DNA from: Bacteroidales bacterium
GTDB lineage: Bacteria; Bacteroidota; Bacteroidia; Bacteroidales; UBA932
Length of the DNA stretch: 33,373 nt
Reading direction: 5' to 3'
NCBI GenBank assembly: GCA_017398125.1
Contig: JAFQHE010000050.1
Location: 1-33,373, forward strand
The position numbers were made by a program, and so were the translations under genes. The notes under the pieces were generated by a model. That model was not told the origin of the DNA. It worked only from the letters and a program-made list of their open reading frames with translations, and did not search any database. Positions within the stretch are counted from its first letter, which is position 1; each line of letters starts with the position of its first letter. Below, piece by piece: positions 1 to 32,388 of this stretch.

Positions 1-1239
1 AAGCACAGGATTTGACTCCTCATTGAGTTCTGCAGCAACCTCCTGCATAGCCTTTGAGCCGGTTGACTCTGCACGTTCAATGAACTCATACGCATTCACA
101 AGTTGGTACATTTTGTCTCCTCTTATACAGATCGGGTGGAAGAGCATACCTCCATCCAGATCATTATCAAATCCACAAGCCTTATATGGGGTACCCGACA
201 TATACTCTTCATTGACCGGAAGCCTTGTACTCTTGCCTGTTGACTTGTCATACAGACACAACGCTACTCTGTCTTTTACTTCCAAATTCGGATATCCGGT
301 TTTACTGAATACCGCCCTATACAGTACAAATTGCGGAGTTTCAACAAAGAAAGCTCTTACCTCAACACAATCCTCATTCCTATGATATTTGCCATACTTC
401 AACAGATACTCCTGAACAAGGGTGCCGTCAGCAGGATTTATTGAGTATAGGGTATCTCCATATCCGAGAAGAATAGCCTTGTCATTGTTCTGGTATATCA
501 TAGGATTGGTGCTTCTTGCCATTATAGGAGTCATTGACCCGTCTCCGGTAACATCACGCATATATGTCACCATCTCGAATTTGCCCAGACTCTTCTGCAA
601 TCTCACATTATAATTGCTGTCCTGTATGGTAATTATATCCTCACCCTTTTCGGCATCCTCCATTATATATATGAACTCCCCATTTATATATGCATATCTG
701 CCTAAAAATTTGAAACTGTTACCATCCAAAGGAAATGAATTCAGATAATTGCCCTCCTTGTCATACTTTAAAACGGAAGTCCAGTCAATCATGTATACAT
801 TATCTCCATCAGGTACAAGATTAAGGCCCTGCGTATACTCACCCTCTGCCCTGCCGCTTTTTGCCTTGAACGGCAAGTTCTTTCCGGTATAGTCAAAACT
901 GTATATATCGCTGGCCCCCACACGCCTGGTACTGCTTATATAAATGCGGTCATCAGAGGGAAAAATGTTGGTCATACTGACATCTGTAACCAGGACATCG
1001 GCCGATGTTTCAAGAGGTATATATTCTATATCTGAAAAATATCTGCTCATTTTTACCGGAGTGCTGTTTTCCATTGCCTGCCCAATGTCAAGCACCGGAA
1101 GTGATTGTACGCCTGCATTGCCATTACCGCTGCCACAACCTGAAGCAAACCACATTGCCACAGTAACTGCAACTGAGGCAAGTCCAAATTTCAAACTTTT
1201 CATTTTAATTTTCATTTTAATTTTCATTTTAATTTTCAT
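1..1239 (-). CDS. 6-bladed beta-propeller lipoprotein (copy 1), 3' end cut by window edge
   Basis: This open frame runs uninterrupted for 413 codons and leaves the window at its 3' end. The protein begins with three Met-Lys-Ile-Lys units, then Met-Lys-Ser-Leu-Lys, a hydrophobic segment and a lipobox ending FASGC, so a lipid-anchored envelope protein is expected. The body resembles the 6-bladed beta-propeller proteins common in Bacteroidota (motif YIPLET near residue 75, repeated short beta-rich segments). Its C-terminal part (MYQLVNAYEFIERA, then ELNEESNPVL) matches the next gene closely, so the two are tandem paralogs. By comparison with that gene only about six codons plus the stop are missing. 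No separate promoter was found in the 96-bp gap to the upstream paralog, so co-transcription is likely. The ligand is unknown; the family lies near envelope or polysaccharide functions in other genomes. Any of four in-frame ATGs (first bases at 1239, 1227, 1215 and 1203) could start translation. Confidence 0.85.
   Translation of the reverse strand, partial: MKIKMKIKMKIKMKSLKFGLASVAVTVAMWFASGCGSGNGNAGVQSLPVLDIGQAMENSTPVKMSRYFSDIEYIPLETSADVLVTDVSMTNIFPSDDRIYISSTRRVGASDIYSFDYTGKNLPFKAKSGRAEGEYTQGLNLVPDGDNVYMIDWTSVLKYDKEGNYLNSFPLDGNSFKFLGRYAYINGEFIYIMEDAEKGEDIITIQDSNYNVRLQKSLGKFEMVTYMRDVTGDGSMTPIMARSTNPMIYQNNDKAILLGYGDTLYSINPADGTLVQEYLLKYGKYHRNEDCVEVRAFFVETPQFVLYRAVFSKTGYPNLEVKDRVALCLYDKSTGKSTRLPVNEEYMSGTPYKACGFDNDLDGGMLFHPICIRGDKMYQLVNAYEFIERAESTGSKAMQEVAAELNEESNPVL
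1204..1239 (-). repeat. Start-codon tandem repeat, 3 x 12 nt
   Basis: Read on the minus strand, the unit ATGAAAATTAAA occurs three times perfectly and is followed by a fourth ATGAAA that enters the unique signal peptide sequence. Each unit carries an in-frame ATG, and the period is a multiple of three, so copy-number change keeps the frame. The repeat adds Met and Lys residues to the positively charged n-region of the lipoprotein signal peptide. Confidence 0.95.
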
Positions 1240-1335
1240 TTCAACAACTCCGCCTTTACCGCAGATTTTTACATCATCTGATCTGTTTCCAAAGATGGAT
1301 AAAAAGGTTTGGGTCACAACTGTCGGGAAGAGGAT

Positions 1336-2604
1336 TTATTTGAGCGTTGCCACCACAAGCACAGGATTGGAGTCCTCATTCAGTTTTGAGGCAATCTCCC
1401 GCATTTTCACGGAACCTGTAGCATCTGCCTGTTCTATAAACTTGTATGCATCCACCAACTGGTACATCTTGTTGCCGGAAATGTGATACGGGAAGAAAGG
1501 CATGCCGCCATCGATGTCATTCTTGAAATATGGATCATTTTCATCATTCTTTGCAAACTTAATTGTCCTGCCCGCAGCCTTGTCAAAAAAGATATAATTC
1601 ATTCTCTCTGATGTTTGCAAATTATCAAAATACTTCATGGGGTGTACAGTCTGTAAAATAAGAAAGTTTGGAGCCTCATAACAATATCCACCCATAGAGA
1701 CTTTCCTTTTGTAACCATCCTTAAGGTTGCCCATATCAAGTACATATGCAACCTCCGCACTGCCTGTACCTCTATATGAATAGATTGAATCCGTAAATTT
1801 GTGCAGCAACAGATAATTTTCTGAAGATTTTGAAATTACCTCCACACTACTCCTTACAGACGGATCTGTCCAATACTCCTGAGGAAAAGTGCTGTAATCA
1901 ATCAATACATTGTCTGAAACAACATTACCATTGTCATCAACGTCCAAGGCATACGTACTATATCCTTCTTTGGCACTCTTCATAAATTGCACCTTGCCTC
2001 CCACATACATAACAATAGTAAAAAAGCCATAATCAGGGAGATCCAAATTAATGGATTTTACAAACTCACCTTGCGGAGTATAAAACTTTACAACGGTCTC
2101 TTCGTTTACAATCAATTGGTCATTAGCCTTATCCAGTACAACACCCACAGGGATAACCCATTCATTCTCCGCCCTTCCTACGTGTTTGAAATGAGAAAGC
2201 AATTTACCATCTGCCGAAAAACGGAATATTGGAGAGTTGGGAAAATTCGGTTTCGGGAAAAAATAGATTGAATTTTCATCAACAGCCATCTCCAAAAAAT
2301 GATAGCCTGGCAAAAACTCCCCACCCATATCAAGAGGTATATACTCAACAGAAGTAGCCACCTCGCTCAATGCAATCTCCTGTGGATTTGAAGCCAGAGC
2401 CTTTGCCATCTCAATTACCTTTATTTCATCTGACTCCCCCGAACCGACCCCGAAAGAACATGCCCCCAAAACAGACGCAACAAAGGCCACTCCACATAAC
2501 AGCAACATACTGCAAGAAAATTTGATTACACTTTTGACTACTTTTTTCATTTTGACTACTTTTTTCATTTTGACTACTTTTTTCATTTTGACTACTTTTT
2601 TCAT
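1336..2604 (-). CDS. 6-bladed beta-propeller lipoprotein (copy 2)
   Basis: This is a 422-residue protein and a tandem paralog of the gene at 1-1239. It begins with four perfect copies of Met-Lys-Lys-Val-Val-Lys, followed by a hydrophobic core and the lipobox LGAC near residue 49, which predicts export and lipidation. The mature part has the features of Bacteroidota 6-bladed beta-propeller proteins: YIPLDMG near residue 90, alternating short strands, and a conserved end (MYQLVDAYKFIEQ, then LNEDSNPVLVVATLK). No enzymatic motif is visible, so a binding or scaffold role at the cell surface or periplasmic face is the most that can be inferred. A well-formed promoter lies about 60 bp upstream. Start choice is ambiguous because all four ATGs (first bases at 2604, 2586, 2568, 2550) give a plausible signal peptide; the shortest form is of normal length for a lipoprotein signal. 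Confidence 0.9.
   Translation of the reverse strand: MKKVVKMKKVVKMKKVVKMKKVVKSVIKFSCSMLLLCGVAFVASVLGACSFGVGSGESDEIKVIEMAKALASNPQEIALSEVATSVEYIPLDMGGEFLPGYHFLEMAVDENSIYFFPKPNFPNSPIFRFSADGKLLSHFKHVGRAENEWVIPVGVVLDKANDQLIVNEETVVKFYTPQGEFVKSINLDLPDYGFFTIVMYVGGKVQFMKSAKEGYSTYALDVDDNGNVVSDNVLIDYSTFPQEYWTDPSVRSSVEVISKSSENYLLLHKFTDSIYSYRGTGSAEVAYVLDMGNLKDGYKRKVSMGGYCYEAPNFLILQTVHPMKYFDNLQTSERMNYIFFDKAAGRTIKFAKNDENDPYFKNDIDGGMPFFPYHISGNKMYQLVDAYKFIEQADATGSVKMREIASKLNEDSNPVLVVATLK
2533..2604 (-). repeat. Start-codon tandem repeat, 4 x 18 nt
   Basis: The minus-strand unit ATGAAAAAAGTAGTCAAA is repeated four times without a mismatch, starting at the annotated ATG. Each unit encodes MKKVVK. The unit differs in length and sequence from the 12-nt repeat in the neighbouring paralog, so the two expansions arose independently at the same functional position. 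Confidence 0.97.
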
Positions 2605-2660: not shown

Positions 2661-2692
2661 CAAAAATAATAATTAAGTGATATAATCACAAA
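2661..2692 (-). promoter_or_regulatory. Bacteroidota-type promoter of beta-propeller genes
   Basis: On the minus strand TTTG (2692-2689) is followed after 20 bp by TATTTTTG (2668-2661), matching the Bacteroidota consensus TTTG-N19-21-TAnnTTTG. Transcription would begin near 2655, leaving a leader of about 50 nt before the first ATG. Confidence 0.75.
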
Positions 2693-2922: not shown

Positions 2923-4089
2923 TTATTTTTTGAGCAGTTGGTAGAGTTTTACGCACTCAACCGCCTCCTTTACATCGTGGACACGCAAAATATCTGCACC
3001 AAGCATGAGTGCCTGCAGATTGAGCGCGGCTGTTGCGCACAATGAACTTTCGGGGGTTATGCCAAGAGGCTTGTATATCATTGACTTGCGTGAAATACCC
3101 ACAAGCAGCCGCCTTCTGTTGCTGCTACTGATGCCTCTGGCATTGCTGCAACTGCTATTGCTGCTGCCGTTACTGATGCTGCCGCATTTTCCGGTATTCC
3201 CGCCATTACTGATGTTACCGATACTATTTATACCTGCTGGAGTATGGTCGGATTGGGTCGCATCGCCCGAAACTATATCCATAAGTTGCGGCATTCCCAT
3301 AAAGAGTTCGTAGTTCTGCTCCACACTCTTTGCAAAGCCAAAACCGGGATCAACAATATAATTGCCTATACCGCACTCCGCTGCACGCTTCTCAAACTTA
3401 AGAAAGTACTCTGCAACCTCCTGCACCACCCCACGAGGATAATCGCAGAGTTGCTGCATTGTTGAAGGAGTGCCCCTCTTGTGCATTGCAATATATTCCA
3501 ATCCAAGTCTTCCCACCACAGGCAACATCTGCGGATCATCTTCTCCGGCAGAAATGTCGTTTACAATAAAGTCTCCTATTGTATCATAAGCCCTGCGGAC
3601 AATCTCACTGCGGAATGTATCTATGGATATACGCGGCGGGCAAACGCCCGCCGCAGCCGCACATAAACCCGATTTTGCAACATGCTCAAGCGGTTCTTTC
3701 AGCAGTTTCCACTCCTGATCCAGAGTAATTGGAGTACTGCCCGGACGGGTGGAACAGGCACCTATATCAATTATACCTGCACCGGACGAAAGCATTTGTT
3801 CCAGCTGTCGGGAAAAGGATTGGAGGCTGCTGCACCTGCTCGCGGAGTAGAATGATTCCTCATTCACATTTATGATACCCATGACAACCGGCATGTTGCA
3901 CATGTCCCCTTTTGCCTCTCCTTCTGCCGGAAAGTCGTGTATGCTGCCGTTTGCCAACAAGTTGTGCATGCTGCCACACGCCGGTCCTTCAGCCGGCTGC
4001 ATGTTTGACAATAATGTTCTGTTCCTCTGCATTCTTTTGATTTTATGGCCGTTATTTATCCTCTTCCCAATAATGGACACCTGCCCCAC
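2923..4089 (-). CDS. folP: Dihydropteroate synthase with low-complexity insertions
   Basis: The protein joins pABA to dihydropterin pyrophosphate in folate synthesis and is the sulfonamide target. Family motifs appear in order: MGIINVNEESF (about residues 70-80; the usual TPDSF reads NEESF), IIDIGACSTRPG, ISIDTF, VNDIS, MHKRGTPSTMQ, DPGFGFAKS, GISRKS and RVHDV at the end. At 388 residues it is roughly 100 longer than the usual ~280. The excess is an N-terminal extension of about 65 residues and a Ser/Asn/Gly-rich stretch at about residues 278-325 (3115-3258), just before the GISRKS strand. The frame stays open and all catalytic segments are present, so it is probably functional. A promoter -7 box at 4097-4104 puts the transcript start almost on this ATG; a start at a later Met (residues 20, 30 or 41) is therefore quite possible. 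Confidence 0.88.
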   Translation of the reverse strand: MGQVSIIGKRINNGHKIKRMQRNRTLLSNMQPAEGPACGSMHNLLANGSIHDFPAEGEAKGDMCNMPVVMGIINVNEESFYSASRCSSLQSFSRQLEQMLSSGAGIIDIGACSTRPGSTPITLDQEWKLLKEPLEHVAKSGLCAAAAGVCPPRISIDTFRSEIVRRAYDTIGDFIVNDISAGEDDPQMLPVVGRLGLEYIAMHKRGTPSTMQQLCDYPRGVVQEVAEYFLKFEKRAAECGIGNYIVDPGFGFAKSVEQNYELFMGMPQLMDIVSGDATQSDHTPAGINSIGNISNGGNTGKCGSISNGSSNSSCSNARGISSSNRRRLLVGISRKSMIYKPLGITPESSLCATAALNLQALMLGADILRVHDVKEAVECVKLYQLLKK

Positions 4090-32238: not shown

Positions 32239-32301
32239 TTGTGTTGGTGTTGTGTTGGTGTTGTGTTGGTGTTGTGTTGGTGTTGTGTTGGTTGTGTTGG
32301 G
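32239..32301 (+). repeat. 11-bp intergenic tandem repeat
   Basis: TTGTGTTGGTG occurs four times perfectly (32239-32282) followed by two truncated copies (32283-32291 and 32292-32301) and a GT-rich fade. It begins 55 bp after the asnA stop. No coding frame crosses it. The period of 11 bp is about one helical turn, and the unit is not a multiple of three. Confidence 0.95.
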
Positions 32302-32388
32302 TTGGGTTATATAGGGTAAAAAGAGATGCAGTGAAGTCCATCCATCCCCGGATACACATTAGCTTGTAAATCTATTTAATAATAAAAA

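Follow-up and report, generated by a model that had tools for sequence, protein, structure and literature searches.

The window, i.e. the whole 33,373-nt stretch of Bacteroidales DNA that was analysed, begins at a contig edge with two adjacent paralogous genes on the reverse strand, gene B and gene A (copies 1 and 2 of an earlier note on this DNA), each of which opens with tandem copies of a short unit that carries the start codon. The features of the locus are as follows.

1..1239, reverse strand: gene B (copy 1), a DUF5128 6-bladed beta-propeller lipoprotein gene, 3' end lost at the contig edge
1204..1239, reverse strand: gene B start array, three perfect 12-nt units ATGAAAATTAAA (MKIK)
1240..1335, reverse strand: A-B spacer of 96 nt, a homolog of which precedes gene C on contig C15
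1336..2604, reverse strand: gene A (copy 2), encoding a 422-aa propeller-type lipoprotein, complete
2533..2604, reverse strand: gene A start array, four perfect 18-nt units ATGAAAAAAGTAGTCAAA (MKKVVK)
2661..2692, reverse strand: match to a presumed Bacteroides-type promoter motif upstream of gene A, TTTG-N20-TATTTTTG, containing the palindrome-like GTGATTATATCAC

Both arrays run in frame from the first ATG, and Tandem Repeats Finder reported 12 nt x 3.8 for gene B and 18 nt x 4.1 for gene A. In gene B the first ATG lies at 1239, the start region reads MKIKMKIKMKIKMKSLKF, and a fourth ATG (ATGAAAAGT) stands immediately after the array at 1203-1201; the array of gene A, at 2604-2533, is followed by AGTGTAATCAAA. 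The starting observation of the earlier note, that neighbouring paralogs (E 1.5e-43, 32% identity) carry different in-frame start arrays, was confirmed (4 x 18 nt and 3 x 12 nt, 100% matches in each), with the correction that gene B is truncated by the contig edge. A third paralog, gene C, lies near the end of contig C15 and has a start array of its own (MKSK x 3); judging from the synteny in a sister species and from the two contig ends, gene C probably follows gene B in this genome. When the genome was searched for three closely spaced ATGAAR, seven matches fell at four places, namely A, B, C and one unrelated site, a count that is not proof on its own, since the backwards control gave four.

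Gene B is a member of PF17170 (DUF5128), which it matches at E 1.7e-12 and 47.6 bits against a gathering cut-off of 22.9. No Pfam family, PF17170 included, was matched by gene A at E ≤ 1, and genes A and C are placed with the DUF5128 / 6-bladed beta-propeller lipoproteins as paralogs of B. A lipobox cysteine is present in both A and B; in A it is Cys49, invariant in a 24-sequence family alignment, which makes the product a predicted lipoprotein. A structure model of gene A built from this alignment (mean pLDDT 79.3, with residues 1-34 and 47-58 below 50) had as its best PDB match the Bacteroides fragilis exported protein 4raa (TM 0.56 by query length), followed by NHL domains. The 2.2-Mb genome of the window holds about 35 propeller-family ORFs and that of the sister 38; in the other 37 genomes of the genus, gene A as query returned 0-7 candidates each, which is not a count of family members.

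The match upstream of gene A resembles a Bacteroides-type promoter; the window has seven matches to the motif against 2.25 expected, and seven were reached in 1 of 100 shuffles. No known structured RNA was found in the window at gathering thresholds. Near its far end, at 32239-32308, lies an intergenic 11-nt tandem repeat (TTGTGTTGGTG x 6.6).

Unit turnover and shared leaders in the sister species

In the sister species (genome G007) genes A, B and C are consecutive, all three bear start arrays, and the cluster is flanked by genes that we recognise as folP and infB. A relative of gene A at E ≤ 1e-60 is present in 2 of the genus's 39 genomes, one of the 39 being that of the window, and a scan of 84,980 species genomes, a set from which the window's genome is possibly absent, returned one record, the sister's SUYU01000006.1 (MAG Bacteroidales bacterium isolate SIG158). 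Close to its C-terminal end, the product of the window's folP-like gene (2923-4089, reverse strand) contains a low-complexity insertion rich in Ser, Asn and Gly, of which the sister has a longer version.

The arrays differ between the two species, both of which are represented by draft genomes. Gene A, with four identical units here, has five in the sister, the first of them with GTG and the last with two bases changed, so that ATG is not kept in every unit. Gene C has three units here and four in the sister. Gene B has three in both, with the variable codon reading ATT in all three units here and AGT, AGC and AGT in the sister, a parallel change of all three units that points to array turnover or to sequence exchange with gene C. 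The coding sequence downstream of the array shows 29 differences in 1197 nt for A, 27 in 1203 nt for B and 38 in 1296 nt for C, i.e. 2.2-2.9%, with no internal indel in 3,696 nt and a 21-nt end gap in B at the contig edge as the sole gap. The length changes in these genes are therefore whole array units, and the arrays turn over fast relative to the sequence that follows them. In both species the units of A, B and C are multiples of 3, free of stops and Lys-rich. The earlier note had expected that slipped-strand changes in copy number would preserve the frame; the whole-unit, in-frame differences in A and C fit this, with B equal and with sister species rather than strains as the units of comparison. 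Slippage may be the mechanism of these changes.

Errors of short-read assembly in repeats could in principle produce such differences, given that both genomes are drafts, that one contig break falls in the cluster and that the sister contig has a coverage of 6.5. The arrays are, however, at most 90 nt long, and two separate assemblies place them at the same starts with unit-specific base differences, and we regard an artefact as very improbable.

Simple-sequence-repeat contingency loci of Neisseria and Haemophilus switch the reading frame through changes in repeat length near the gene start. The start arrays resemble them in being tandem repeats near the gene start that change in length, perfect arrays at a gene-control position whose unit number differs between related genomes (two compared). 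They differ in that the units, at 12 and 18 nt, are all multiples of 3, which does not fit an on/off frame-shift switch.

The leaders of B and C are also related to each other. In the sister, the sequence that runs from the final codons of the gene before to the end of the start array is nearly the same at the A-B and B-C junctions (three mismatches in about 170 nt), although the proteins are only 26-33% identical. The 96-nt spacers before B and C differ at 10 sites here and at 1 in the sister. Because the leader of B is almost the same as that of C and their units are related, the three array genes amount to two origins, one for A and one for B/C. The claim of the earlier note that two expansions had arisen independently thus stands for A against B/C, with the reservation that B and C share one leader and that a third gene, C, also carries an array; we count A and B/C as two probable origins, though units of 12-18 nt are too short to decide on a common unit origin, e.g. 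through a 6-nt deletion.

Further orthologous pairs of propeller genes (L017/L134, L034/L148, L011/L127 and L030/L129) have aligned bodies that are 89-98% identical between the two species and signal peptides or upstream leaders that differ, which looks as if 5' ends had been exchanged among paralogs.

It is conceivable that the shared leader and array serve mainly as a recombination handle, with near-identical direct repeats of about 170 nt flanking gene B, such that exchange would convert leaders or would remove or duplicate propeller genes in frame. The junctions described above, with so few mismatches between genes for such divergent proteins, are what this explanation would lead one to expect, the contig break in the window's genome falls at the shared-leader repeat, and other propeller orthologs have replaced 5' ends. 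The array of gene A, however, has a different unit and lies outside the shared leader, no A-C fusion was seen in the two genomes that carry the cluster, and the arrays of unrelated genes such as L179, L191 and L248 (see below) would go unexplained. We consider a handle of this kind unlikely as the main role of the arrays.

Start-codon context and a proposed mechanism

According to one study (PMC6847099), Bacteroidetes mRNAs are without Shine-Dalgarno sequences, AUG is underrepresented near the start codon across Bacteroidetes, and low structure together with A at -3, -6 and -12/-13 promotes initiation in Flavobacterium johnsoniae. In genes A, B and C of the two species, every array ATG after the first has A at -3 (19 of 19); at -6, all 12 later array ATGs of B and C have A and all 7 of gene A have G. 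The frequency of A at -3 is 14 of 30 among family starts and 231 of 544 among background first ATGs, and an extra ATG just past the array of the sister gene C has G at this position. Mean pairing probability is 0.40-0.53 in the region of the first start codon of the six genes and 0.09-0.41 at the later start codons, below the first start in every gene; the 30 family starts have a mean of 0.52 (range 0.23-0.70). Since the later array ATGs have A at -3 within weakly folded, A-rich RNA, each unit appears to be a portable start site, and each provides the ATG that follows with a favourable context.

In six of six genes there is no A at either -3 or -6 of the first start codon. We dropped the notion that it is unusually poor, given that about one third of background first ATGs would be expected to lack A at both positions (A is found at them in 231 and 232 of 544, if the two are independent) and that B and C are not independent of each other. 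The poor context of the first start nevertheless argues against a simple view in which every ATG counts, as does the GTG in the first unit of the sister gene A.

Our preferred reading, to which we give roughly an even chance, is that these arrays are start-codon minisatellites, i.e. in-frame units that would add complete start sites and so tune the amount of a lipoprotein, with the mature protein held constant. Each 12- or 18-nt unit consists of an ATG together with the A-rich, unstructured sequence that Bacteroidota ribosomes favour in place of a Shine-Dalgarno site, and the units follow directly on one another at the starts of all three genes in a cluster for beta-propeller lipoproteins. As a whole start site there fits within 12-18 nt, slippage could add or remove complete start sites in frame: whole units would be gained or lost by slippage or unequal recombination, every extra unit would be another complete start site with the frame unchanged, and the leaders of B and C would in addition swap sequence. 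The residues that the arrays add belong to the Lys-rich n-region of the signal peptide.

The cut made by signal peptidase II lies in front of the lipobox cysteine. The array should for this reason be absent from the mature lipoprotein, and cleavage should yield an identical mature protein for any unit number and whichever ATG is used, while the rate of initiation, perhaps at several ATGs, and the efficiency of the signal peptide would be free to vary and with them the amount of lipoprotein. The rheostat that the earlier note had in mind is, on these sequence features, plausible; the effect of charge that it added is possible, but the extra residues sit in a portion of the signal peptide that is expected to be removed.

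If only the most downstream ATG were used, the upstream units would be an untranslated, unstructured, A-rich leader that boosts initiation at that site. The first methionine of the family aligns with the fourth ATG of gene A (residue 19, invariant in the family alignment), a result that is partly built in because the starts of most aligned paralogs were chosen by the analyst, and both the poor context of the first start and the weak pairing of the array RNA would suit a single downstream start. An untranslated leader, on the other hand, needs no units that are multiples of 3, stop-free and Lys-rich, yet A, B and C keep these properties in both species, and the contexts of the upstream array ATGs match that of the last one in quality. 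We judge exclusive use of the last ATG to be improbable.

Start arrays in the propeller family and across the order

Tandem duplications that include the start are rare at ordinary gene starts. None was found among 544 background ORFs of at least 150 aa (40 stretches of 20 kb from six genomes), nor among the neighbouring non-family ORFs in the two species (0 of 32 and 0 of 38). In the propeller family of the window's genome, 34 genes are complete and reach 200 aa; three of these have one, namely A, C and a gene on contig C29, and the truncated B is a fourth; the C29 gene (L029, approximately 475-545) has a perfect 33-nt tandem duplication of leader and start that is absent from its sister ortholog L159. 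The sister's family has start duplications in 3 of 37 complete genes. The arrays thus set these genes apart from most members of the DUF5128 family in both genomes, which have one ordinary start (31 of the 34 complete genes tested here and 34 of the 37 in the sister). Among the 25 ortholog pairs with an identity of 80% or higher, start arrays are found in two, those of A and C; B is missing from this set because it is truncated. A regional or genome-wide proneness to repeats, which we also considered, found no support: a scan for arrays of period 9-45 (at least 2.5 copies, 90% match) gave 0 in 200 kb here, 1 in the same length of the sister genome and 7 in 400 kb from four other genomes.

These counts bear on the main rival of the minisatellite reading, which is neutral tolerance and which we hold to be credible, at somewhat under an even chance. 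On this account the arrays are by-products of slippage in A-rich gene starts, harmless in-frame additions to the n-region of exported proteins persist and out-of-frame ones are removed, and unit number has no selected effect. Signal-peptide n-regions tolerate change, A and B/C do not share a conserved unit sequence, unit number and sequence drift between the species, and the cases found elsewhere are spread over unrelated protein families and are in several instances degenerate. Neutral drift may well explain much of the pattern. Independent start duplications are nevertheless concentrated in one family (3 of 34 against 0 of 544, Fisher p 1.9e-4; p 0.007 against the 138 background ORFs of the window's genome) in a genome that is not generally rich in such arrays, and such a grouping of separate origins within a single gene cluster and family is an argument against pure neutrality. 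Under the minisatellite reading, the arrays may be under selection for tunability.

The earlier note had also proposed a search for similar starts in other Bacteroidales. Exact three-copy ATGAAR was matched at period 12 in 41 of 393 genomes (backwards control 31) and at period 18 in 34 of 386 (control 23); out of frame, the matches were 7 of 386 at period 13 (control 3) and 10 of 386 at period 11 (control 13), the backwards-control genome counts being our own tally. These totals were dropped as evidence, as they lie little above the controls and ordinary coding repeats also favour in-frame periods, and only inspected gene-start cases therefore carry weight. Inspection yielded ten further genes with start arrays away from the A-B-C locus. 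The period is 12 in six of them and 18 in the other four; each is an ORF of 100 aa or more, preceded by a short stretch in the same frame, and each array is in frame by choice of period. By eye, eight appear to encode exported proteins (L164, L179, L191, L192, L193, L240, L248 and L259) and two do not (L197 and L261), L261 passing the hydrophobicity threshold at 2.01 and being scored as not exported on its cytosolic appearance. A hydrophobic segment near the start occurs in 224 of 544 background ORFs (p 0.015 for 8 of 10), a comparison that is indicative only because the segment windows differed (60 and 42 residues).

Several of the ten arrays are degenerate; the cleanest are those of L179, L191, L192, L197 and L248. 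L192, with MKRK units, is a DUF5128 protein from a different bacterial family, L179 has a Por secretion tail at its C-terminus, L191 is AsmA-like and L164 is a DUF4292 protein. L248 (reverse strand, 871-1560), which appears to be secreted and had no Pfam match, has MKK x 7, the longest start array among the inspected genes; the genus has one other genome, in which the ortholog (64% identity) has a single MKK start. We count this recurrence, including the seven-unit L248 with its single-start ortholog and the DUF5128 gene L192, as tending to favour the minisatellite reading.

Candidates excluded from the ten were L187 (period 12) and L262 (period 18), with a stop inside the array; L196 (period 12), with a likely spurious frame and the array 57 codons upstream; and L263 and L264 (period 18), with ORFs below 100 aa. 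Four further period-12 sites (G347:C623, G536:C19, G294:C54 and G210:C336) were left out for an in-frame stop within the matched string. Two more degenerate lipoprotein starts, L057 and L105, were seen among the matches listed and stand outside the count, and the 36-nt pattern of the A array had 0 matches in viral contigs. No perfect out-of-frame start array at 11 or 13 nt was found in the 386 genomes searched; L224 and L227 (11 nt, degenerate ATG triples) and L213 (13 nt) lie at gene starts and were judged to be chance, imperfect low-complexity matches. A preference of start arrays for in-frame periods is only suggestive, since gene-start cases also occur at periods 11 and 13 and the in-frame state of the ten was set by the choice of period.

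Graded repeat systems and implications

Two reports describe systems in which repeat length has graded or leader-based effects. In Helicobacter pylori sabA, the length of an intergenic, promoter-proximal mononucleotide T-tract grades transcription (PMC4081817); the start arrays are alike in that repeat length would grade expression rather than switch it, a grading that is here proposed only, and unlike in that their 12- and 18-nt units hold the start codon within the coding frame. In Streptococcus gallolyticus pil1, GCAGA repeats lie in a separate leader peptide and a change in length acts by attenuation (PMC3894217); both systems have repeats in a translated leader, whereas the units of the start arrays are in frame with the lipoprotein gene itself. 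No description of start-codon arrays was found in the titles and abstract beginnings of the open-access literature among the matches listed, which is weak evidence of novelty. That start-codon minisatellites form a distinct class of genetic dial, belonging to bacteria whose ribosomes do without Shine-Dalgarno sites and setting how much of an exported protein is made while the mature protein stays constant, is a tentative and rather doubtful proposition.

Genes that stack four or five AUGs break the reported Bacteroidetes trend towards fewer start-proximal AUGs than expected (PMC6847099), and this stacking against the trend makes start-site choice testable. The arrays are natural constructs for studying the choice that ribosomes make between equivalent AUGs in the absence of a Shine-Dalgarno site. 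Should output depend on unit number, they would be a mutational dial of expression that always leaves the mature protein unchanged and that screens for frameshifts would miss.
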